Below, piece after piece: positions 490 to 18,727 of a DNA stretch of 62,480 bases. Position 1 is the stretch's first letter. The number at the start of each line of letters is the position of its first letter. The position numbers were made by a program, and so were the translations under genes. Origin of the DNA: Discostella pseudostelligera (taxonomy: Eukaryota; Bacillariophyta; Thalassiosirophyceae; Thalassiosirales; Thalassiosiraceae); assembly GCA_036940085.1 (NCBI GenBank), contig JALLBK010000009.1, positions 1 to 62,480 on the forward strand. Reading direction: 5' to 3'. The notes beneath the pieces are model-generated. The model searched no databases and was not told the origin of the DNA. It saw nothing but the letters and a program-made list of their open reading frames with translations.

Positions 490-2094
490 ATGATCATGCT
501 TTTCTGCCTCGAATCCATCGTGGCCATCAGCGCCATTGCCATTGCGCTCACCACCTCCCTCGTCTCCGCCGCTGGCTGCTACCCCCCCTACTCCCCCGGA
601 ACCAAATATTCGATCGGTACCTGGGTCTTGGCTACTGTCACCACCACCCCACCTGTAACCTACACACCTTGCGCTACTCCGGGAGTGGGCAATTGCTCCA
701 CCTCCGGTTTCATTCAAACCGGCGGTGTATCAGTAACCGACACTTCGAATTATCAATGCATTTCGGAATATTGGTGTTCACAGGTGGGATATGCGCCCCC
801 GACACTGTATTGGAATCAGGCATGGTCAAAGGAGGGCACCCCTTGCACGGTAAGATTATAAAGATCATGTTGATGAATTTTGCTGCCGATGTCGCTGAGC
901 TGTACGGCTGTACGCACGTGGCTCTCAGATGAGGTGGCAAGCACATCATCATCGACACTTTGAACATCTCCATGAAACATCAACTCACATGTGATACAAA
1001 ATATCACCGTTGTCATGCCTCGCTTCAAACATCAAAAACAAATATTACAGGGAACGGCAGTAATCTCCCCCACCAACTCTCCCATCTTCGTCTCTCTTCC
1101 CAATGTCGGCGGATGTCCCTCCACCTACATTGCCAACTCGCCCTACGAACCAGGCTCACGCGTCTCACTTAATTCAATAGTCTACCAATGCAAATCATGG
1201 CCATCCAGTCTCTACTGTCCCCAGGATGCCTACAAGCCTGACCCATCCTCCACATTGAACTATTGGCAACAGGCATGGGAGCGTGTAGGATATTGCTCTG
1301 GATCAATTATCCCGACCAATTCACCAACTATTGCATCGGGTGGGGGAGGATGTCCCCCTCCTTGGGTCGGGGGAGGGATTTCAAAGTACAAGGCGGATGA
1401 TCGTGTCAGTGTCATCAAGCCTACAAGTGGTGGGGTTACTACCATGGTATACAAATGCAAGGCATGGCCATACTCGGGATACTGTGGACAATTCGATCCA
1501 CTCCACCTTACTGGTGGCTCATTGGGATGGGAATTAGTTGGTGGTTGTTCTGGAACGATTACGCCCACTACATCACCTACCTTTGCAGCTGGAACTGTCA
1601 TTACCGGTTGCCCTAACATGTATGTCGAAGGTAGTACTAGTTACAAATCCGGTGATCAAGTGGCCACACTCATCGTGGGGAGTACCACCCACAAGATGAT
1701 ATACAAGTGTCGCGAATGGCCCAATGGTGAATATTGCAACCAATGCGGCTTTGCACCCGGTACCGAATACTCCAACATGGCATGGATTGAAGTGGGACCA
1801 TGCACGGGTACCTTTGCTCCCACGGCACCACCGACTGAATTCACCAGTGCGTGCAAGTACATCAAGGTTGTCAACAATACTCCCGTAGCGGTCAATGTGA
1901 ACAGATGGACAGCAGGTGTATCGTATGTGGCGGGTGATCAAGTCCATATTGACGGAAACACTTATATGTGCAAGCCGTGGCCGTACTATCTATGGTGTAG
2001 TACTGCAGCGTATCAGCCCACCACTTCGGCTACGGGATTGTGGAATGAGGCATGGAGTCCGAGTGGTCCTTGCCAACGAGTTGCCGTTGCTTAA
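490..2094 (+). CDS. Secreted protein with five chitin-binding-type (ChtBD3-like) modules
   Basis: The gene has two exons, 490-849 and 1051-2094, joined at ACG|GTAAGA and ttacag|GGAACG in phase 0, giving 467 residues. Residues 1-28 form a signal peptide (hydrophobic core up to SLVSAAG). Five Cys-rich modules follow, at roughly residues 29-119, 141-203, 220-287, 306-370 and 387-462. Each has the pattern Y-x-G/D-x-x-V, then Y-x-C-K/R-x-W-P, a short gap and C, then W near the end and a closing G-x-C. Linkers are Thr/Pro-rich (for example TPTTSPT), which suggests O-glycosylation. This layout resembles carbohydrate-binding modules of the CBM5/12 (ChtBD3) type, common in chitin-fibre-making centric diatoms. 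No catalytic domain is present, so it is probably an extracellular or cell-wall binding protein. The splice is supported because it recreates the linker motif C-T-G-T that ends the other modules. The module family is inferred. Confidence 0.8.
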
Positions 2095-2601
2095 GAAGTC
2101 CGTGCACTGTAGTGGCAAATCGTCTACTTTAAGAGTGTACGATTTGGATCTGATACGGTAGTTGATAATGATAGCAGCACTAGGCCTTGTGTTTAGTTTG
2201 GAATACATTTCTCTCTCGCTGCCGTGAAATAATAATGCATTGAATTACAGGATTTGGTAGAGAAAGAGAGTAGAAAGTACCTTTATATGAAAATAATGGA
2301 ATTCAGAATTATCTTTTAGATTGTTAGGGCCGGTTCTGATGTTGCTGTTGTCGTGGACCATGCCGATGTTGTCAACATGAAGCGTCGTCGGGAGAAGTAT
2401 CACTGCAATTGTAGAAGTAGTGTCTGTTTCGGTTGTTGCATTGTTGTGGCGAATTTGTTACCGCCACCGTCATTGTCGTCGTATCAGTAACTTCGTAACC
2501 ACTTTGCAATATCCAATACCAATCATTCTATCAGCGCCACATGGAGATGCTAACCAGCATGTTTCTGAGTCGATTGATTATGGCATTACCATGCAGCCAC
2601 A
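2095..2601. other. Intergenic stretch between convergent genes
   Basis: This is the shared 3' region of the chitin-binding-type gene (+) and the DTW gene (-). It is AT-rich near 2210-2320. I see no gene, RNA or clear repeat in it. Confidence 0.5.
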
Positions 2602-3687
2602 CTATCCATCTTGTTCCTTCGGTAGAGTATTCTGTCGCCCCAAAGCTTCATTGTTAATAATCACAGCATCAATAATGCTCTGTTGAATTTGGGATGACAC
2701 TCCAAGCTCCAATAACAATTGTCCACATGCTTCGGCAGTACTAACTCGATGTGCTACTACCATTGTCTTCTCATCGTCTGCAGGACATTGCTGTAGTCGC
2801 TGCAATTGCTGTTGACTTTGATGTGCATGACCATAATTCTTATGTGCACGATGGAAAACTGACCTGTTCATAGGACGGAGTTGCACTAGTACCGGTAATG
2901 CTGTAGTTGAATGGAGATGTTTCCGAAGGGAAGTGTGCATATTGCGTGCTTGGGTGTAGGTTCCATCCAATACCACTGCTCGAATTAGAGGCGTTGTTGG
3001 CTCGCATGTATTTATTGTCGAATTTGAGTTGTCCTCCTCCTTCGAGCATATACCAGTAGATTGTTGTTGCTGCCGCTCCAGAAATTGAGACACAGTCAAT
3101 GCATCCTTATCAGGCCACAAGATCATTGTATTCGTAATATCGATAATCATTTCTTGTGCCAATTTATCCACATCCCCCACTTTTCCAAATATAAAATATT
3201 GTACATTAGTATGATGTTGTTGGTGCTCTTTATCTGGAAGCATCATTCGCAATAGTTTGGCACTGTTCCCCGCACACAGATATTCTTTGGGGTGCATCAA
3301 TATTAACAATTTGACATTCACAGAGTGGCCTAACAGTGACGATGACGTCGACGATGACGACGATAGGATGTGGCTATTTCGTGCATGAAGTTCCTGTATC
3401 CGATGGCAGATGCAGTTCATTAAATCGAACCAACAGCCCTGACAGCGAAGTCGAGCTCGCGACATGGATTCTCTATGCTCAAGCGACAATGTCGTCATGG
3501 CCTCCATGAGATCCCAGCCATGCATTCCCTGTGCGAGAAGATTCTGCTTGTGAGAACGGACAGTTTGTAATCTCTGTCCGTGACGCTCGGCTTGTTCGGC
3601 ATGGTGAGAGTGGGTATGGGATTGCTGTGGAGGATAGAGAGTGGAGGATACGGCGGCGGCGGCGGCGTCGGCCATGGTCTTGGCCAT
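2602..3687 (-). CDS. DTW-domain protein, probable tRNA-uridine aminocarboxypropyltransferase
   Basis: A single-exon protein of 361 residues starting MAKTMADAAAA. DTW-family enzymes transfer the 3-amino-3-carboxypropyl group of S-adenosylmethionine to uridine in tRNA, making acp3U. Visible family marks, in order, are a zinc-type cluster C-x2-C...C-x-C near residue 82 (RCQGCWFDLMNCIC), HPKE followed by NSAKLL near 130-145, the signature region VVLDGTYTQARNM near 238-250, and STAEA near 316. The namesake motif D-x-T-W reads D-G-T-Y, so the Trp is replaced by Tyr. Gln-rich and Ser-rich inserts separate the conserved blocks. It is divergent from the desaturase gene, with 416 bp between start codons. 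The family call is firm. The exact tRNA position modified, and whether it is the DTWD1 or DTWD2 type, cannot be told by eye. Confidence 0.82.
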   Translation of the reverse strand: MAKTMADAAAAAVSSTLYPPQQSHTHSHHAEQAERHGQRLQTVRSHKQNLLAQGMHGWDLMEAMTTLSLEHRESMSRARLRCQGCWFDLMNCICHRIQELHARNSHILSSSSSTSSSLLGHSVNVKLLILMHPKEYLCAGNSAKLLRMMLPDKEHQQHHTNVQYFIFGKVGDVDKLAQEMIIDITNTMILWPDKDALTVSQFLERQQQQSTGICSKEEDNSNSTINTCEPTTPLIRAVVLDGTYTQARNMHTSLRKHLHSTTALPVLVQLRPMNRSVFHRAHKNYGHAHQSQQQLQRLQQCPADDEKTMVVAHRVSTAEACGQLLLELGVSSQIQQSIIDAVIINNEALGRQNTLPKEQDG

Positions 3688-4103
3688 GCCATGGTCATAT
3701 TATTATCTTTTCTCCCCGCCGCGAACGAGTTGTGACGTCAGCGTTCGCATCATCTACTCCTAAGTATTATTATTTCTTCTGTACAATAAGGTGGTCGATG
3801 AATGACGCACCCTAGAAGTTCAACCCGTCCGTCTGTCACCATTCGAACGGGTATCTAGATGCACCAGGACGCACCACTCCACCGGAAACAAGAACAACCG
3901 CATGGTCGATGGTCGTTGCAGTACGAATCTACCATCGATCGGGGGGTTCTATTATTTCTATCGGGAGTTTGATTGATTGAATTGGGGCGCGGGCGGACCA
4001 CAGTCTCAATCTGAACTACTTCTCCATCAGTTGCATCTATCGGTTGCGATCGCGACGACGTGTCATATCTAGTAGCAGGGCCAAAGCGGAAGAAATAATA
4101 ATA
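3688..4103. promoter_or_regulatory. Divergent promoter with a perfect CRE (TGACGTCA)
   Basis: This 416-bp gap separates the start codons of the DTW gene (-) and the desaturase gene (+). At 3733-3740 it contains the palindrome TGACGTCA, the classic binding site of CREB/ATF-type bZIP factors. TGACGT-type elements are known in diatoms as CO2/cAMP-responsive elements. A GC-rich CCCCGCCGCGAA lies at 3715-3726. It is the only one of the eight divergent promoters here without a clear GGCGGGAA motif. Confidence 0.5.
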
Positions 4104-5678
4104 ATGTGTGGTGCACCATCCTCGTCCTCGGACCCTCCAACTCCACCATCGACACTACGACGCCGAGTCATCGCAAAAGGCAAAGGGAGAAACGGATCCG
4201 ACGAGCCTGATCATGTTGCCAATGAGAAAGTTACAACCTTGGTAGCGGCGGAGACATCATCAATGCCAAAGCCAGCGGCTACGACGATGACGACGACGTC
4301 GGCATCAATGACAATGCTTCTCGAGCCCAAAGTTTCCTACTCCTCCGGTGTGGCCTTCTACCCCCCCTCCAATCATCATTGGCGCATTGGTGGAAAGTGG
4401 TACGACTTTACCGACTTTCTACCCCATCACCCTGGCGGGTCCGAGGTACTACTCATGGTACGAGATCGATTCGAGGATGCCACCTTTGTATTTGAATCAC
4501 ATCATCATAATTACAAAAAGACCCGGGCGATGATACGAAAGTATGAAGTGGAGGAATCGGTGGTGCGTGCGGCTGGATTGCGACGTCGACCTACCAAACG
4601 TACAATTATAACCGGCTGTGATGGAGAGAATGATCATATTCATCATCATCATGATCGTCATTTGGATGCCAATGAAACCCCCAAGCTATTGGGAGACGAT
4701 GCCTTCTACTCGATCATGCGACAACGTGTATCCCAATATCTATTCAGGGTGGGCTCTCCTCGTGGTGGCCCTACCAAACAATGCATCCTTCTGTTCTGGA
4801 CATCGTTCATTGCATGGTTATCTTGCTACCTATGGCTACTTACCACAGCATCGATCGTTGCATCGATTTGTCTTGGATTTACCGCCGCATGGCTTGGCGC
4901 TTTTGGTCATAACTGGGTCCATCAACCAAAGTACAAATTATGGGCACACTTATCCCTCGACGTCGTCGGCTTTAGCAGTGATGCATGGTTCCGAGAACAC
5001 AATTTACAGCATCACATGTATACCAATACTCCGTGGGATAATCACTTTACTGGATCGGCACCATGGCTTATTACTGATCCGACGGTGGAACGCAACGTTT
5101 TACAGAAGTATGTCATGCCATATATCAACCCCATCCTGCTGTCGTTTGGGCTGTACACCAATTACTTGATTAATACTGTCGAAGTGATCAAGGGAAATGA
5201 GGTGGTAACGCCATGGAAACTTTTACTACCGTTGGAGGTTGGAGCGATGATATATACCTGGGGATGGAGAGGAATGATCTTAATGTTCCTCTCTCACTCC
5301 ATATTGGGCATGTACTACTTCACCATGGCATTGATGAATCACAACGCCCATCATTGCCTCAATGTTATGAAGCGGAATGCCTCTCGTGATTGGGGTGAAG
5401 CACAGATTATCTCCTCTGCAGATTGGGCCGTGGGCATGCCGTTTTGGGCCGCGGGCATTTATCTATGGTTGAATTATCATACCGTGCATCACCTTTTTCC
5501 TCTGATAGATTTTTCACATCATCCGGCAATACAGCAAATATTGATTGAGACATGCAAGGAGTTCCAGATTGATTATGTTGTTGCATCGCCCGTGGACATT
5601 TACATTCAGATGGTGCGCTCGTTTTCATCACCGTCGTCGTTGATGCAGGAGATTTTGGTATATGGTGGAGGAATATAG
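4104..5678 (+). CDS. Cytochrome b5-fused fatty acid (or sphingolipid) desaturase
   Basis: A single-exon protein of 524 residues. The start is the first in-frame ATG (MCGAPSSSS); the open frame extends upstream but without an ATG. After a low-complexity N-terminus comes a cytochrome b5 domain with the haem motif HPGG at about residue 108. The membrane desaturase domain follows, with three His boxes: HNWVH near 268, HNLQHH near 298 and YHTVHH near 458. Hydrophobic pairs of helices lie between boxes 1 and 2 and between boxes 2 and 3. N-terminal b5 fusion is typical of front-end desaturases, which act on ER lipids using electrons from the b5 domain. Those normally have Gln as the first residue of box 3 (QxxHH); here it is His, so regioselectivity is uncertain. 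It converges with the purine gene, with only 131 bp between stop codons. Confidence 0.85.
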   Translation: MCGAPSSSSDPPTPPSTLRRRVIAKGKGRNGSDEPDHVANEKVTTLVAAETSSMPKPAATTMTTTSASMTMLLEPKVSYSSGVAFYPPSNHHWRIGGKWYDFTDFLPHHPGGSEVLLMVRDRFEDATFVFESHHHNYKKTRAMIRKYEVEESVVRAAGLRRRPTKRTIITGCDGENDHIHHHHDRHLDANETPKLLGDDAFYSIMRQRVSQYLFRVGSPRGGPTKQCILLFWTSFIAWLSCYLWLLTTASIVASICLGFTAAWLGAFGHNWVHQPKYKLWAHLSLDVVGFSSDAWFREHNLQHHMYTNTPWDNHFTGSAPWLITDPTVERNVLQKYVMPYINPILLSFGLYTNYLINTVEVIKGNEVVTPWKLLLPLEVGAMIYTWGWRGMILMFLSHSILGMYYFTMALMNHNAHHCLNVMKRNASRDWGEAQIISSADWAVGMPFWAAGIYLWLNYHTVHHLFPLIDFSHHPAIQQILIETCKEFQIDYVVASPVDIYIQMVRSFSSPSSLMQEILVYGGGI

Positions 5679-5809: not shown

Positions 5810-8800
5810 CTATGCAAGGTTATGTTTCATTTCCACTTGTTCTTCGTTCCCCTGGCGATCAGTTAATACACCCAAGTCATAAACCAAAAGCTCGCCAGCT
5901 TCATGTAGCAGCGACTTCACCTCGTCAACGCAATCCTTCTTCACAATGAGAACCATCCCAATACCACAGTTGAAAGTGCGGAGCATTTCGTGATCGTCCA
6001 ATCCACTAATTTGCTTCATCCAGCTGAAGACATTGGGAAGAGGTGGATGGCCCATGATTTCGGCCTTGACATTTGATGGTAGACTTCGAGGTAAATTCTC
6101 GAGTAGACCGCCACCAGTAATGTGAGCAAGACCATGTAACAATTGCTTCTGCAGCAGCGGAAGGCAACACTTGACATAAATCTTCGTTGGCGTCAAGAGT
6201 GAATCCCCAACTGTTCCGGCGTTCCTATCCCAGGGACACGCTGAATCATAGTCCAAATTTGCTTTCTCAACTAGCTTCCGGACCAAGCTGAATCCGTTGC
6301 TGTGTACTCCACTGCTAGGAAGCCCCAGAAGGACATCTCCAGCACTAACGTTTTGCGGCAGCACCCTATCTCTATGCACAGCCCCGACGCTAAAACCTGC
6401 CAAGTCGTAGTCTCCAGGAGCGTACATGGATGGCATCTCGGCCGTCTCTCCACCAATTAGCCCACAACCGGCTTGCTTACACCCCTCAGCAATTCCCAGA
6501 ACGACAGCAGCGGCCTCTTCCACATCCAGCTTGCCCGTGGCAAAGTAGTCGAGGAAAAACAATGGCTCTCCACCAGCGACAATAAGATCATTGACACACA
6601 TGGCAACCAAATCAATGCCAACTGATTGATGCTTCTTTGTCAAGTGAGCTACACGAAGCTTGGTGCCCACACCATCCGTGGCGCCGATAATGATGGTGTC
6701 TTCTGATTTATACCCCGCCGCCGCCAAATCGAACAGCCCCCCGAACCCACCCAGTTCGGCATCGCATCCAGGCCGACGAGTTGCCTTGCACGATGGTTTG
6801 ATAAGCTCCACAAGTGAATTTCCAGCATCAATGCTTACACCTGCATCGGCATAGCTGACCGTGGTCTTGCACTTCTTCTGAATGGCCTCGATGAAGGAGG
6901 GGCCCTCGAGAGCTTGTACCTTTGCCTTTAGTGACTCCGCCGTCTCTCCTGCTTCTACCTTGACAATTTTCTGGACGACGATAGGTCCACCATCGACGTC
7001 TTCTGTCACCTCGTGAATGGTGCAACCACTTTCGGTTTCATTTGCATCGATGACAGCTTGATGCACCTACCGACCCCCAGACAGTGATTAAGAAAATCAA
7101 GACATTAGTACCATGCAAAGACGCGAGAGTACACATGCAGCAATATCAAAATAGATTCCTAACTCACTGCCAAATCCATCCCTCCAGCATGTTTTGGTAG
7201 TAATGACGGATGCACATTGATACACCGACCTGACCAATAGTCAGTGAATGACTTTGATAGAATCCGCATGTACCCCACCAACAATACATACTCCACGCCC
7301 GCACCCACCAACACTGACGTACACTCAGCATCGAATTGCTCCCTACTCAATCCTTTCGAGGATACAAATTTAGTAGTCACTGTGACTCCCAAACTCTTAC
7401 CCTTGTCAAGAATCGGAGCGGAGCTTCGATTGCTCACCACAGCGACGATTTCTGCGTGTAGACTTCCATTGGCGCATGCCTCCATAACAGGAATAAGTGC
7501 CGTTCCACGTGTGGACCCCAAAACACCGATACGCAACTTCTTTCGAATGGCGCCCTTGGCAATGTCCGTCCGGTAGTGCATCAAGTTAGCACCAGCACTA
7601 TCCTCAAACGTGATATGCTCAACAGTCTTGTACGATGCGGCGAGTGCCTCTGTTAAGTTCGATCCCATCCCAGTCACGGCAAGGACACGCCCTCCTGAGC
7701 AACGCGTAATGTTATCCTCCACCTTCGTACCGGCATGATACACCTTGACATTCTCAAAGGCACCAGCACTCTCCAACCCATGAATCGCCATTCCTTTGGG
7801 ATATGTTTCCGGATATCCCTTGGCAGCACAGACCACCGTGGCCGCCGAGACATGTTCCTTAAAGCGTACGTCAATAGTGTTAAGCGTTCCATTGCAACAA
7901 GCCTGCATGACTTCATAGAGATCCGTCTCAAGGAGAGGAAGGACGACTTGAGTTTCGGGATCACCGAAACGACAGTTGAATTCAAGTACGGATGGACCGT
8001 TCGGCGTGAGCCTTCGGGAATAGAATGCAAAATTATCAAGCATGAATGATGAGATATTTCATCACGTCCAGAAATGGTAAATGAATAGGTGCATCGACAT
8101 GTGGTTGTACTCACATCATTCCAGCATACAAAATTCCCACATACGGTGTGCCCCGCTCTGCCATCTTCTCCACCGTCGTAATACACATCTTTTCAATCTC
8201 ACGATGCAATTCCGGCGTCACACACGGTGCGGGAGCATACGCACCCATGCCACCAGTATTCAACCCCAAATCCCCATCCAAGGCACGTTTGTGATCTTGG
8301 GCGGCAGGCATGAGTACGGCCGTCTTTCCATCACAAAAGGCCAAGCAGGATGCTTCGGGTCCGGACATGAACGATTCAATGACGCAAGTGTCCCCCGCGG
8401 AACCAAAAGCTTTATCACACATGATTTCTTCGACTGCCGCAATGGTCTCCTCGAGGGTAGTGGGAAGTAATACGCCTTTTCCGGCTGCAAGGCCGGATGC
8501 CTTGATGACTTGACGATCATTGGGAATGTCGAGAGATTGGACGTAGGAAATCGCCTCATCGGGAGAAGTGAAGTTACGATATTTGGCAGTGGGGATATTG
8601 TGTTGTTGAAGAAAGTCTTTGGTGAAGGCCTGAGAAAACATCAGAATATCCATCGCAAGAACTTGTTTGAGAATTGGATGATAATGAAACTCATTGGAGT
8701 TTCGGAAGGATGGTGACGATGATGCGCTTCATGTAAAAATAAAATTGATATCACTAACCTTGCTTGCCTCCAACTGTGCTCCGGCCATGGTAGGACCAAA

Positions 8801-9902
8801 TACCTTCACATTGGGACAATGTTTTGCAAGTTCATCAACGACACCATCGACCAAGGGTTGTTCGGGACCTACCACTACCATATTGGCTTGCACAGCTTGG
8901 ACTAATTGGATGACTGTGGCATTGTCCATGGTAGTTAGTGGTGCAGACGTCGTCGTCGAGCCACTATCCAATAGCATATCAGTAGTGGCATTGCATATTT
9001 TGCCACCCCCCTCCGATTGTGTCCCACCATTCCCGGGCAAACAAATAATCTTCCCCACCAATGGAGATTTCGACAATGCCACTGCCAATGCATGTTCTCG
9101 ACCACCATTTCCCAATAGTACCACAGTATCCATGGATGGTTGTGTGAGATGAGATACAGCCGATTGATCAAGGTTGGTAAGGGCAGATAGTGTTGCTGCC
9201 GATGGATTCTTCGATTGTGGTTGTTGTTGCTCCTGAGAAAACACGCACAATGCCAAATATTCCTCGGCTTCCGCAGCCGTAGACAAAGCAGTGCCATCAT
9301 TATCAAGAAGGAAGGAAGAAGTCTTGGAATCAAATGTAACAACCACCACAGGGTTCGATGCAGTGGAGGATGCAGAACGGTAGATGGACGAACGAATGTA
9401 ATTGGATTCCTCTTGGGATGCCGCCGCCAAATACTCGGTAAGCGATGTGGGTAGATTGTAAACAATGATCAATGGTTGATGTTGTTGTTGTGTGCTGGTA
9501 GTAGTGGCGGTGCTAGTTTTGTTATTGAGAAAAGTGCGGTAGGGTGCCTGCAGTAGTGCATATTCCATTGATTGGGATCGGACAGGTTGGATGGTTTGGA
9601 GGCTAAAGCGACTGGTTGCGTTGGCGACTAGTTGGAGCACCTACATATCAAAATCAATTCAAGGAAATAATGAGTACCATGATAGAACACACATGAGAGA
9701 GGTGAGAAAATAATAATGTAGGAGCAAGTAAAACGGAAAAGACGCCATCAAACTGATAACAACATAGACGACGCCGACAGACAAGGTGACACGTGATGAA
9801 GACGACTATGCCCTCAGCATCAATGATACGTACCGGCGCTGGCGTCGAGCCACCAAAGCCAATCAAGGCAATGTCCGCTTGCGACAAGTCTGGGATGACC
9901 AT
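5810..9902 (-). CDS. Trifunctional purine enzyme, domain order GARS-GART-AIRS
   Basis: Five exons are inferred: 9902-9834, 9640-8759, 8629-8115, 8011-7168 and 7066-5810, giving 1188 residues. All junctions are GT-AG and restore conserved family sequence (for example EASK|AFTKDF and AGMM|LTPNG). Domains in order are: an unassigned N-terminal extension (1-190); phosphoribosylamine-glycine ligase (about 190-640; GNGGREHA, LEFNCRFGDPE); glycinamide ribonucleotide transformylase (about 645-833; HPSLLPKHAGG and the catalytic-type Asp in EDVDGGP); and AIR synthetase (about 835-1180; GATDGVGTK, GGETAEMP). These are steps 2, 3 and 5 of de novo purine synthesis, from phosphoribosylamine to AIR. The animal trifunctional enzyme has AIRS in the middle; here GART is in the middle. 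No clear organelle signal is seen, so it is probably cytosolic. Divergent from bystin. Confidence 0.92.
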
Positions 9903-12658: not shown

Positions 12659-15600
12659 ATGTCCCCTGCCGCCTGCAGCTACACGGCAAGCGGAGCTTGT
12701 ACTTCTTCGGCATCGAAACCATCATCGTATCGCAATAACAACATGGGGGGCAAGCCGGCAATGGTGATGTCGTCGTTTAGACTCTACCGCGCCATCATTG
12801 TATTGCTACTCGCCGCCTCATTGTCATTCTCCGGTGGAACATTGTGTCGCATCATCTGGTTGAGTAAACACTTGGAGGTTTCATCCGCGCATCAGTCTCT
12901 GGGTGACGACGATGTTCCTACGCCACAGTACAGTTCAGACGAGGCTGCGTTAGATGGACAAGAGCTAGTGAGCTTGTCTGTCGGGGACGAAGATGACGAC
13001 GACGATGATGATAATGCAACTCTCCATCTACCCACTGGACAAAGTCTCTTCGTCGATATTAAAAATGCAGACGCAACCTTACTCAACTCAGAAGAGATGT
13101 TGGTTTCGGCTATGACTCAACTACTCAATGAGACCAAAGACGTGCTCCTATCTTACCATTGTCATTCAATGACGCCTATGGGATTGAGTTGTGTAGGAGT
13201 GTCAGTGAAAAGTCATGTGAGTCGGTGTGCAATATTATTATCTCATCTTCCTGTCAAAAGAACTCATTTATTTATTGATGTGTGTTTTCGTAGGTGACTG
13301 TGCATACTTGGCCAAAAGATGGGGTCGTATTCATGAACTTATTCACTGCTACCGACGGTCTATTGGTCCCTTCCATCCTCCCAACCTTAAACACATTGTT
13401 CGGTATCCCTCCTCGCCTTGACTCGTCGTCGTTGGACAATCCTTCTCGGATGCTATGGTCGTATAAGCTTCGCGGATTCCGTGCCGAATTTTCTACTGAA
13501 TACAACATTCATGGCAATCCCTATGAGAAAGAAATCGCATTGGATTATTTGATGCACATTGACTATACGAAGACATCGTTGGTGTCCGAACAAACCGACT
13601 TCCAGCATGTGGATATATACGAAATCACCAAGTCTTTGGAAGCGTATGAAAAATCATTGGCCGACGATGGATCCTATGAGTCTCTTCATCGAGAATTGTA
13701 CCGACCAGATACAGTCCTCTTCCTGGATGGTGTCCAACAGAGTAGCTGGAAGGGAGAAGCGGCATATCACGAGGCATTGGTCCATCCAGCCATGATTGCG
13801 CATCCGAATCCCAAGCGGGTGGCTATCATTGGTGGGGGAGAAGGGGCTACCCTACGTGAAATACTGAAACACAAAACTGTTACCGAGGTTAAGATGGTCG
13901 ATATTGATGGAAGGCTCATTGAATTATGCCGGGAATACTTGCCTGAATGGAACGATTGTAGTGACTTGATTGGGAGTGATTCCGATTCCTGCTTTGACGA
14001 TTCGAGAGCCTCTGTGGAGTGCATGGATGCATTTGGTTGGTTCATCGACAATTTTGGTGAAGAGGAGATGAGAGAAGAAAAGTATGATGTTATCATTATG
14101 GATGCATTGGATCCAGACGATTTCATTGCCATCGTTGGAAACCTTTACAAAGATAATCACTTCGTCGACTCACTTTACAATGGTCTCTCTGACAACGGGG
14201 TGGTAAGTGTTGTCCGATGAATAGTGTGTCAATGATGCCAGTATGGTCGCATCGTATTTTCTCATTTGGTTGGATTTGTCTTTCTCTTACTCCTAGTTCG
14301 TTGTCCAAACTGGCGAGACTGACCAGCTCAGGACGCCTGCATTTGAAATGGGCCCAGATGTCGACAAAGGTCATTTGGTAAGCTTGTGCAATGTGCAATA
14401 TTGCATTAATTCAAACGCATTATTCTCATGTTATCGCCTCGGCCTCTCTAGTTTGGTGCTCTGCAAAGTGCAGGATTCGAAAGCATGCATACATATGTTG
14501 AGGTATGCTTCGAGTTTACTTCACTTGCATTCCTTTCAATTCCAACAACCCAAAGACTCACACGATCTTCCTTTGTCGATCAAAATCAAAAAAGGGACAT
14601 AGTTATTTCTTTGCACCTTGGTCCTATCTAGTTTGCTTCAAAAACTACGAATCAAGAGCGAACTGGTACAGATCTGCTCCGGAACTTGCCGTCGAGCTGC
14701 ATGAGCGCCTTTACGGTACCAAGTCTGGACAGCCGACACTTCGGTACGTTGATGAGTCTACGCTGATAGACTACCAATTGCCATCGAAAGCTCAAGAAAC
14801 CACGTACTGTCGAGGTGAGGACAAGGCAAAGGAATGCGATAGGGTCTCTCGAAAGTATAACTCTGTTCCGTCGTCCGATCTCCAAGTCCGAAAGAGTCCC
14901 ATTGGAGATTATGCCGGGCGTGGATTGTTTGCTGCAAAAGATATTCCTGCCCATTCATATTTGTTTGTGCAGGAGAGCGTCCACTGTTTCTATTTCCTCC
15001 CTTTGACATGGTCTATTATGACAAGTATGCAAATGTGGGCACATGCACATCAACTTCATTACGTAGAATCGAAACTTTCCAGTGTTCTGGTGTTCACCGA
15101 AGGGTATGGATTTATTGCCACCATGCTGGTACGTAAAATGATGTTGAATGCTTCTTGTTGATTGATCACTAACAAATTTCTCTCAACGCACTTATTGTCA
15201 TCGAATACATGTATTCTCTCTAGGGAAAGTTGCACTACACAATCGATTCGGGAATCGGCCTTTTCTGCAACCATGGTTGCAATGGAACCTACAACTTTGG
15301 TACCGATGATTACTTTATGGGCGATGTTAAGATAACAGAAGTGAATGTTGACGATATGGATGACGATCCTCCCGACGTTGTGTTTAACCCAATACGCGAG
15401 CGTCATATGCGCCAATGGCTAAGCACGGGAGATTATACTCTACGTGACATAAGAAAGGGTGAGGAGATTCTTTGTAATTACGTGGATTACATCGATGACC
15501 CAGATGATTGGGACAACGAACTCGCAGCGTGAGTATATCTGGATTGAGGTGTATGCTTAGGAACATACGATGTGACCTAATCTTTCTGCGTTTCATTTTG

Positions 15601-15712
15601 CTTCTGTAGATTGCATGATCAATGCACGGGATCAACCATTGGACAAATATATGAGCATGAGCATGAGCATGCAGCTGAAGTTCGAGAGGAGATGGTGACG
15701 TCGGAACAGTAG
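12659..15712 (+). CDS. Membrane-anchored AdoMet decarboxylase-spermidine synthase-SET domain triple fusion
   Basis: Seven exons are inferred: 12659-13216, 13294-14202, 14297-14377, 14452-14502, 14556-15128, 15224-15528 and 15610-15712, about 859 residues. The 14503-14555 intron is only 53 nt and is the least certain. Residues 44-67 are a signal-anchor helix, followed by an acidic linker. A bacterial-type SpeD domain (about 125-245) has HSMTPMGLSC and KSHVTVHTWP; the Ser of KSH is the pyruvoyl precursor position. An aminopropyltransferase domain (about 290-560) has FLDGVQQSSWKGEAAYHEAL, GGGEGATLRE, VDIDGRLIELCREYLPEW and MDALDP. A SET-type domain (about 642-815) has GRGLFAAKDI, FCNHGC (usual NHSC) and GEEILCNYVDY, followed by a Cys-containing tail. 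AdoMetDC makes the aminopropyl donor and the second domain uses it; SET folds transfer methyl groups from AdoMet. This suggests synthesis and methylation of polyamines in the secretory pathway. The SpeD domain lacks the Glu before the cleavage Ser (Lys) and the catalytic Cys (Ala), so its activity is doubtful. Confidence 0.85.
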
Positions 15713-16257
15713 GTATCCTCGGCACTGACGTATCATACATATTATTGCATGCGAGAGAAATGACAGCTAGAGGCAACAGTGCATGAGAAGGAAGAACTTT
15801 CGAGAGTTGAGATCATGGTCCTTAAATTTTGCTACATATTTTTGTTTGATTGTCGCACCAATGAAAGAGATAGGTATCGCAATTGATAATAGTCTAAACA
15901 TGAAACGCTAGTTTGTTTGCACGCCGATCAATGCGGCAAGCAGCCTCCGAAATACTCTTATTCATCTCATCATTGTGGATGCGATATGCGAAAGCGAAAG
16001 TATTAGAGTAGATTGAGTTGATCGATGAAATCAAAGGTGCAAGGTGGATCTTCAGCGATAAAGATCCATCTTGCTCATATCGGAACAGTACTTATTTCGC
16101 CAAAGATCTATTATTTTGTCGCCAAACATCTGTTTGTGACGCTGCTTTTCTCGTCGCAGCCGACGACCGACACTCGACGAAACTCTTCCCATATTTTCAT
16201 GCTCAATTCATTCAATTTAATCCGTCGCATCCAAAGCCATAACCCATAACCTACATA
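15713..16257. other. Intergenic stretch
   Basis: This is the 3' region of the fusion gene and the promoter of the phosphoesterase gene. I see no gene, repeat or E2F-like element in it. Confidence 0.4.
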
Positions 16258-18727
16258 ATGGTTCCTCGTTCCATAGCGCTAGTGACATCGCCATTACTAA
16301 TCGTTATCCATTGGACGGCAATGGTGACGACCAGCAACCTATGCCGCCTTGCTTCAGTGGAGGCATTTGTCCAGCAGCTGCCGCCGTCGCCCACAACATC
16401 AGCTACTACTACCCTCGTCGGCGGCAGTGACAATGGACACTTCTACTACTACTTGTCCTCGTCGCCGACTAGAAGCAGCCATCGATGTCCGCCTATTCGA
16501 CTTCCGCGATTATTTTCCTCACCAGAATCTACGAACGGAGCTGAAGCAGCAGCAGATATGGATGGTGATGCTACCAAAAAGAAGAAACAGCAAAGCAAGA
16601 GCACTACTACTGCCGATGACACTACCACTTCTTCTTCGGCAGCCACTACTACCACCACAGCAACAGCAGCACCAGCAGTGGGTGCTATTTATGCCTCCGA
16701 TCCCTATTCCTTCGTAGTGCCCATCCTTGGTGATTTGCACATTGATCCACGTAAGATGGAAGATTATACCGTTGGGCGGGAACATATTGTACGAATTATT
16801 GATGAGGCGAAACAAACTCTCCTTCTCAAAGATGATAATAGTGCGTCTTTCAACGGAGAAGATGGTAGTACTAGTAGCACCGTGATGGATAGAGTGGCAT
16901 TAGTCTCGTTGGGTGACCTGGGCGAAAGCAAGAATTGCGATCACAATCCTGACAATCCATTTGAATTATTCGCTGGGACTACCAAATGCCATACCATGGC
17001 AGCGGAATTCTTAAATAGCTTTGAAGTCCCCTACGAGGTAATTGGGGGCAATCATGATTTGGAGGGGATTGATGAATTTGATACCGATGCTAAGAATTTA
17101 CGAAGATTTCTAAAAGCGCATAATAAGACGACTCCACAATTTTGTCGACAGGTGGCTGAGAAGACATTGTTGGTTGGATTGGGGTCGACGGTCTTTCGTG
17201 AGGCAAAGTATACTAGTCATGAGGTAATTATTGATGACGATCAGATACATTGGTTTGAGGAGTTGGTCAAGAGTAAGCCATCCGAGGAGGGATGGCGTAT
17301 ATTTGTATTTTCGCATGCACCACCGAATGGATCGGGAATACGCATCATCCAGGAGAATCATGTCGTGAATGGCTGCTGTTGGTTGAATCATAGTGATGAG
17401 AAGAAGTGTCGAAAGTTTATTGAGATTGTGAGGGAGAATCGATGCATCAAGGTGAGTGCACGAGCTGGTGATTAGCGTAGCGCCTACTACGACGATGTCA
17501 ATCGCTTGCGCAAAAAAATACTCATCATCACGCGAACTGTTACTCTACCTCAATTATCAGGGTTGGTTTTCTGGTCATTTCCATTTGGGACAAGATTACC
17601 AGGATAGCATCACGGTGAGTTCGATCAATGCTTAACAGTAGTTGAAAATAGCAAGATCTCTTGTATCTTGTCTTGCCGTTCCTTCTTCGTCACATGCAAT
17701 GTACATCAGTGCTCATATTGCATCTTTCCATCCAATTCACATCTCGTTCTGCAGTTCCCGACTATCGATCCGAAAGATGGACCACAGCCCAACCGCGGCT
17801 CGTGCACCTTCGCCCAAACTTCTGTAATGCGTGCGGGTACCTCCCGTGATGGTCGGCAACAATCTAGGTTGCTCCGTGGAACCAAGGACGGCTTCGAAAT
17901 ATGCACAATTGATCACAGAAACGATGGCAAGGTTCGTGTCGATGCAACCATCACATACAAAGGAGACTCTGGGGTGGGAGTGTACGCTCATGATGATGAG
18001 GCATTCGATCACGACAATTACTTCAAGGTGTATCAACCGCAGTTTAATGATCACGGATATTGCGCTGTTACCGAGGAGGAAATGTGCCTATTGACTCCCG
18101 ATGCGATTACGGAGGAGACAGTTGCCTGGTGGAAATTAAGCTGCGGACGTGTCCTTGGGGTGGTGAATGGAATGATGCTCGAGTTTGACAAGTCTACACT
18201 AGCGCCTTTGGGGTTGGTGGTGTCTGGAGATATGCTGCTTGGGAAGCAGGTTGCGATTATCGATTCAGGATTGGAGGAGTGTATGATTAACTTCGATGAA
18301 GACGGTATGGATGGAGCCGATTGTGCGGATGGTCCAGAGTCTGCAAATGATGTTAGAGAGCAGGTAGGTCATTATCTTGAGTGAATTGACTATTGCATGT
18401 TCAATATCGGCCTTCTAATCGTTGCTCCATCAACAATTCATACAGGCTGTTCTTGTCTATGATGATAACGGCGTATTTGTTGTCCAACCCAACAACGACG
18501 GATCATACTGGAGAAAAATTGTACGCAACAAAATTGCTCGCATGAAGGAGAAACGCCGCGAGAAGGCAGCGATTGACTTTGCATTGACCTACCTACCCGT
18601 GAGGAGTGAGGAAGAGGCGAAGGAAAAGATTGTCAGTACGTGGGGCCCATATAAGAGTACGAGTGGCGTGGCCAAGAGCACCACCACTGAGGGCTTGAAA
18701 AAGAAGCTGAAAGTCTACTCTAGCTGA
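16258..18727 (+). CDS. Calcineurin-like metallophosphoesterase, probably plastid-targeted
   Basis: Four exons, 16258-17451, 17561-17614, 17755-18363 and 18446-18727, give 712 residues; every junction is in phase 0. The N-terminus has a hydrophobic signal sequence ending LASVEA|FVQQ, with Phe just after the likely cleavage site, matching the diatom ASAFAP-type plastid signal. A Ser/Thr-rich, positively charged presequence follows. The catalytic domain carries all metal-binding blocks of the family: GDLHID near 159, SLGDLGE near 219, GGNHD near 262, FSHAPP near 355 and GHFH (GWFSGHFHLGQ) in exon 2. A long C-terminal part (about 420-712) is not recognised; it alternates beta-like segments and ends in a Lys-rich region. 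The fold hydrolyses phosphomonoesters or phosphodiesters, but the substrate cannot be read from sequence. Related proteins are found in plants and algae, with chloroplast forms among them. Confidence 0.82.

Follow-up and report, generated by a model that had tools for sequence, protein, structure and literature searches.

The gene at the centre of this analysis raises the question of whether a diatom fusion of an AdoMet decarboxylase (AdoMetDC), an aminopropyltransferase and a SET domain still makes its own aminopropyl donor, and on what its other two domains would act. In the available passages of the literature, fusions of AdoMetDC and aminopropyltransferase, some of them carrying a 'histone N-methyltransferase domain', are described from diatoms (PMC3820600, citing Michael 2011, FEBS Lett 585:2627), are restated in a 2025 review citing Romer 2008 and Michael 2011 (PMC12029483), and are given a proposed role in long-chain polyamine synthesis and N-methylation (PMC3820600, PMC12029483). 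These accounts agree with the first-pass annotation of this DNA, which had named such fusions as already reported; its diatom polyamine context is likewise supported for the fusion studied here. From the enzyme type, we infer that the methyltransferase domain of the reviews is SET. The three-domain layout itself is not new, having already been described in diatoms. In the available passages, the enzymes that build and methylate diatom long-chain polyamines are still termed potential or likely (PMC3820600, PMC12029483, PMC12803844). For Nitzschia inconspicua, a study of 2025 reports 32 fusion proteins that include an aminopropyltransferase domain (PMC12803844). Our main reading, to which we give a probability of about 70%, is that the gene belongs to this known family, that its AdoMetDC has probably lost catalysis, and that its aminopropyltransferase and SET methyltransferase would act on polyamines or on silaffin lysines.

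The window (the whole analysed stretch of 62,480 nucleotides) holds a predicted gene of seven exons at 12659-15712 on the plus strand, with six introns that are all GT-AG and a product of 846 amino acids (Table 1). This spliced model replaces the one open reading frame assumed earlier, since a continuous frame over 12659-15712 is ruled out by the six introns required. An alternative start lies at the ATG at 12743 (residue 29). For exon 5, the acceptor at 14603 was rejected because it breaks the frame; the acceptor at 14595 leaves the frame open, and its intron coincides in alignment column and phase with an intron of a paralogue on contig C39 of the same genome.

Table 1. Exons of the predicted fusion gene, in window positions, with the protein parts that they encode.
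Feature	Position	Strand	Content
Exon 1	12659-13216	+	N terminus, hydrophobic segment, first half of AdoMetDC-like domain with cleavage site KS (vs ES)
Exon 2	13294-14202	+	Second half of AdoMetDC-like domain with FTAT (active enzymes: FTC); most of aminopropyltransferase with GGGEGATLRE and DALDP
Exon 3	14297-14377	+	Aminopropyltransferase; introns on both sides position-matched with C39
Exon 4	14452-14502	+	Aminopropyltransferase
Exon 5	14595-15128	+	End of aminopropyltransferase, linker, first half of SET (AGRGLFA), one open frame throughout
Exon 6	15224-15528	+	Second half of SET; motifs NHGCNG and GEEILCNY
Exon 7	15610-15712	+	C-terminal tail and stop; a Cys invariant across the 12-sequence SET alignment

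Three neighbouring loci were observed alongside the fusion gene. Directly 3' of it, at 16243-17472 (plus), lies a metallophosphoesterase-like open reading frame (22.0 bits, cut-off 21.5), and a cytochrome b5-fatty acid desaturase fusion occupies 3981-5675 (plus). A probable fused gene for purine synthesis at 5813-9640 (minus) has its domains spread over neighbouring frames, with GARS first, then formyltransferase and AIRS; the animal protein has a different order, GARS-AIRS-GART.

The profile searches proposed in the first-pass annotation matched all three of the AdoMet-related domains that it had placed in a single chain. In Pfam, the 846-residue model matches AdoMet_dc (residues 130-208, 52.6 bits, E 6.4e-14), Spermine_synth (residues 341-496, 115.9 bits, E 2.1e-33) and SET (residues 641-797, 24.8 bits, E 3.1e-5, cut-off 22.4), in the order AdoMetDC-like domain, aminopropyltransferase, SET; the last match falls at about 14916-15481, within the 14880-15530 expected. 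PDB matches were obtained for the AdoMetDC-like and aminopropyltransferase domains. The aminopropyltransferase, to which a spermidine synthase fold is assigned by sequence, has intact motifs, namely GGGxG, two catalytic Asp and a Tyr-His acceptor motif. The N-terminal membrane segment noted earlier is recognizable as a hydrophobic stretch at residues 45-63 (about 12791-12847; mean Kyte-Doolittle 2.05), a possible membrane anchor.

At least 268 relatives were found at E 0.001 when the best 8000 candidates from a large protein database were scored. Among the 120 relatives listed, precomputed Pfam matches show all three domains in 27, the architecture for which a search had been suggested, and aminopropyltransferase with SET in 7 more. 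For four listed three-domain proteins (P0006, P0009, P0013 and P0019), the sources include MMETSP, a transcript collection. The legible organisms among the 120 are Thalassiosira, Helicotheca, Cyclostephanos, Skeletonema and Entomoneis, all of them diatoms.

Within the genome itself (an assembly of 23.0 Mb in 963 contigs), the C39 paralogue encodes 991 amino acids with the three domains of the window protein and a retained AdoMetDC motif. Five of the six window introns coincide with introns of C39 in alignment column and phase, and of these five one interrupts SET and another follows it closely; each gene also has one intron that the other lacks, which in the window gene is intron 1. A second paralogue (C27, L044, 2465-5302 minus) holds the three domains in one frame of 946 codons, with the AdoMetDC Cys replaced by Thr and GGGEG by GGGGG; its SET domain is devoid of the NHxC and Tyr motifs. 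A third (C661, L046, about 578-3162 minus) is an AdoMetDC-aminopropyltransferase whose AdoMetDC motif is kept, as judged by eye; its frame stops soon after the aminopropyltransferase, with no SET seen up to the contig end. Contig C166 encodes a standalone AdoMetDC of the eukaryotic type. Two further loci, C137 (L047, 2005-5073 minus) and C47 (L048, 2305-5286 plus), encode long single-frame proteins with the aminopropyltransferase domain first, and by their predicted layout are alternatively ordered fusions. C47 has a C-terminal ShK domain (27.3 bits); C137 has an AdoMetDC match downstream of the aminopropyltransferase and a C-terminal ShK-like match of 18.1, below the cut-off of 20.9.

That a polyamine synthase gene and a neighbouring SET gene were joined by mistake, as could happen in a gene model that is a prediction, is very improbable, and a separate SET gene was rejected, given that exon 5 spans the junction unbroken, five introns are common to the window gene and C39, C27 has the three domains in a single frame, and transcript-derived relatives bear all three. 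As far as sequence can tell, the locus is one gene. The same junction in exon 5 is covered by P0205, a near-identical metagenome protein (JGI; 98% identity over 42% of the window SET query), which suggests that the same or a sister species is present in metagenomes.

We then consider the state of the SET domain. The window copy retains N727, H728, C730 and Y797, which make up the NHxC motif and the catalytic Tyr. These four residues, together with the G and last E of the GEE motif, are invariant in an alignment of 12 SET sequences, and the four are intact in the window protein and in 58 more of the 123 sequences of our motif table (the 120 listed relatives, the window protein, C39 and C27). 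The group carries NHGCNGT in the 12-sequence alignment; the usual SET form is NHSC. Among relatives chosen for intact SET motifs, 46 of 48 match Pfam SET at E up to 0.01. A single-sequence search of PDB with the window SET alone gave no match at E up to 10. The 12-member profile gave 17 weak matches within E 1, the best at E 0.0024. Thirteen of the 17 carry the name histone-lysine methyltransferase or SET protein; the other four are one cysteine desulfurase and three without SET in the name. On the low Pfam score, the lack of a single-sequence PDB match and the loss of the NHxC and Tyr motifs in C27, one might regard the domain as a decayed SET that only binds. We consider this improbable in view of the intact and invariant residues of the window copy, and of a sequence divergence (5.3 percentage points, as described below) that lies at the edge of the control range of -4.9 to 5.2 and is not raised like that of AdoMetDC.

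Searches with the SET domain alone returned 29 proteins for the single query and 125 for the 12-sequence profile (120 listed), together 146 different proteins. A profile of the aminopropyltransferase tail matches 30 of these 146; none of the remaining 116 has at least 40 residues ahead of the SET start, and these are not judgeable because their upstream part is too short or the SET start is missing. All 30 matches that can be judged carry the aminopropyltransferase tail, which speaks for joint action of the two domains; no standalone SET family was found among the 146 proteins, 116 of them not judgeable. One MMETSP protein of 320 amino acids (P0240) has a SET that begins mid-domain behind an unrelated hydrophobic N terminus, without the tail, and may reflect a misassembly or a genuine free-standing SET protein. 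When the assembly was searched with the window SET and with a codon pattern, the window gene and C39 were the only members of the group found; a third NHGCNG codon match, on C361, lies outside any SET frame and was taken as chance.

The AdoMetDC-like domain departs from the intact pattern. Aligned with 1tlu, which we take to be the AdoMetDC of Thermotoga maritima, the window copy has Lys for Glu62 and Ala for Cys83 and retains the equivalents of Ser63 and His68, so that its site reads KSH/FTA against ESH/FTC. Glu62 precedes the pyruvoyl-forming Ser at the self-cleavage site, and Cys83 is the catalytic Cys. Where an active class 1b enzyme has Glu-Ser and the catalytic Cys, the window protein thus has Lys-Ser and Ala. 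We further measured divergence as identity to five outgroup proteins, comparing the window protein and P0003, whose AdoMetDC is changed like that of the window, with six intact relatives; the two are drawn from seven AdoMetDC-lost, SET-intact proteins and were both picked for the changed motif, and the six controls came from near the top of the match list and include two close pairs (P0002/P0005 and P0006/P0007). The identity deficit of the window protein was 16.5 points for AdoMetDC (95% range 8.7-24.4), 4.4 points for the aminopropyltransferase (1.1-7.7) and 5.3 points for SET (0.9-10.0); the latter two ranges also exclude zero, placing both domains as somewhat more diverged than in the intact relatives. 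The deficits of P0003 were 14.6, 2.2 and 3.5 points, respectively, and the six controls, each taken in turn, gave at most 1.6, 2.2 and 5.2. A copy that is slightly faster overall and much faster in AdoMetDC fits lost catalysis there, with the other domains still under selection. The window AdoMetDC is probably inactive, and the reading, implied by the first-pass annotation, that this protein makes its own decarboxylated AdoMet is not supported, as its site is changed and its domain has diverged faster.

Such changes are not confined to this gene. In the motif table of 123 sequences, AdoMetDC and SET motifs are both intact in 43, the commonest class. AdoMetDC is changed and SET intact in 7 (the window protein among them), AdoMetDC is intact without SET motifs in 20, and SET is intact with AdoMetDC absent or incomplete in 9; AdoMetDC is changed without SET motifs in 22 (C27 among them) and SET is partial in another 22. 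In many rows of the table, a missing SET may reflect truncated gene prediction. The aminopropyltransferase Asp pair is retained in 122 and 121 of the 123 sequences. A quick tree, in which 39 of 118 inner branches are open, gives rough minimum counts of 17 switches in AdoMetDC state over 113 rows and 6 over the 50 SET-bearing rows; the 7 independent pairs obtained on supported branches only are the safer figure. Over these 7 pairs no link was found between AdoMetDC loss and SET loss (median p 1). P0003 groups with two intact relatives (support 97), so that its loss and that of the window protein look separate; the placement of the window protein is less firm (support 94). Judged by these motifs, AdoMetDC loss recurs within the fusion family.

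The retained Ser63 and His68 equivalents make residual AdoMetDC activity possible, and one could accordingly hold that the enzyme still works despite its changed residues and that free N-methylated long-chain polyamines are the sole product of the fusion. This would be in line with the predominance of the doubly intact class and with the free-polyamine role that the available review passages give to the family; we nevertheless rate it as quite unlikely, because Glu62 and Cys83 are both replaced and the extra divergence in this domain far exceeds the 4-5 points of the other two.

Known systems offer points of comparison for a fusion with a probably dead AdoMetDC. The diatom fusions of Michael 2011, as far as they are described in the passages available, equal the window gene in domain set and proposed role and differ from it in that their AdoMetDC is presented as making its own donor. 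Bacterial fusions likewise place a class 1b AdoMetDC ahead of an aminopropyltransferase in one chain (PMC12803844, PMC6356823); in the two tested, AdoMetDC is functional, as it probably is not in the window protein, and the available text mentions no SET domain (PMC12803844). Animal spermine synthase (PDB 3c6k) resembles the window protein in joining an N-terminal AdoMetDC-like domain, inactive there and probably so in the window protein, to a bacterial-type aminopropyltransferase, and, according to the part of the source that covers it, the AdoMetDC-like part lost its activity and the domain is needed to dimerise (PMC12803844). Because the inactive domain is needed there, retention of the window copy as a scaffold is reasonable; the sequence match of the window protein to 3c6k is weak (E 4e-4). 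To our knowledge, animal spermine synthase has neither a membrane anchor nor a SET domain. The abstract of Michael's 2011 study reportedly also mentions fusions with dead AdoMetDC and transfer onto silaffins.

Under our main reading, decarboxylated AdoMet would be supplied from elsewhere in the cell, with C39, C661 and C166 as candidate makers, and the aminopropyltransferase would extend an amine acceptor by aminopropyl units. With AdoMet as methyl donor, the SET domain would then N-methylate either this product or a lysine close by, and the AdoMetDC domain, probably dead, may persist as a scaffold in the manner of animal spermine synthase. Silica formation is the likely use of the products, which would be long-chain polyamines bearing N-methyl groups, or silaffin lysines with aminopropyl and methyl groups; an aminopropyltransferase and a SET domain without a decarboxylase would suit either the modification of silaffin lysines or that of free polyamines with N-methylated propyleneimine chains. 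Protein lysine is the normal substrate of SET enzymes, and methylation of free polyamines would hence be unusual. Diatom-specific SET domain methyltransferases have been reported by Nemoto 2020 (PMC11554505, PMC11151724), which, compared by description only and as far as the citing passages go, share with the window SET a diatom origin and a tie to cell-wall formation and polyamines.

A narrower alternative is that the protein modifies lysines of silaffins or other cell-wall proteins and not free polyamines, by aminopropyl transfer followed by SET methylation. SET is a protein-lysine enzyme by type, and AdoMetDC seems dispensable in the window copy. In addition, the available text on silaffins describes lysines modified with dimethyl or methylated aminopropyl groups, and proposes that enzymes recognize clusters of KXXK (PMC4557024). 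Against this alternative, a test for positive charge on the N side of the hydrophobic segment, which bears on membrane orientation (a type II protein facing the lumen, in line with the ER/Golgi or silica deposition vesicle site proposed in the first-pass annotation, would have more of it there), came out even (16 for, 15 against and 9 equal among the 40 usable of 51 proteins). We also know of no aminopropyltransferase of the spermidine synthase family that acts on protein lysine. We thus regard the alternative as possible but somewhat unlikely, and more doubtful still is the wider proposal that several fusion lineages, after losing AdoMetDC catalysis, turned into dedicated protein-modifying enzymes, in which the aminopropyltransferase would extend silaffin lysines and SET would methylate them. 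If that were true, the fusion would write the silaffin lysine code, a role for which an enzyme has long been sought.

Returning to the main reading, the window gene is a candidate for producing the methylated amines involved in building the glass cell wall. With two of the three activities kept, as judged by motif, and the third apparently lost, this copy separates the questions: the contrast between the window form and the intact C39 would bear on whether the SET substrate is polyamines or proteins, and on whether the decarboxylase part may serve as a mere scaffold.
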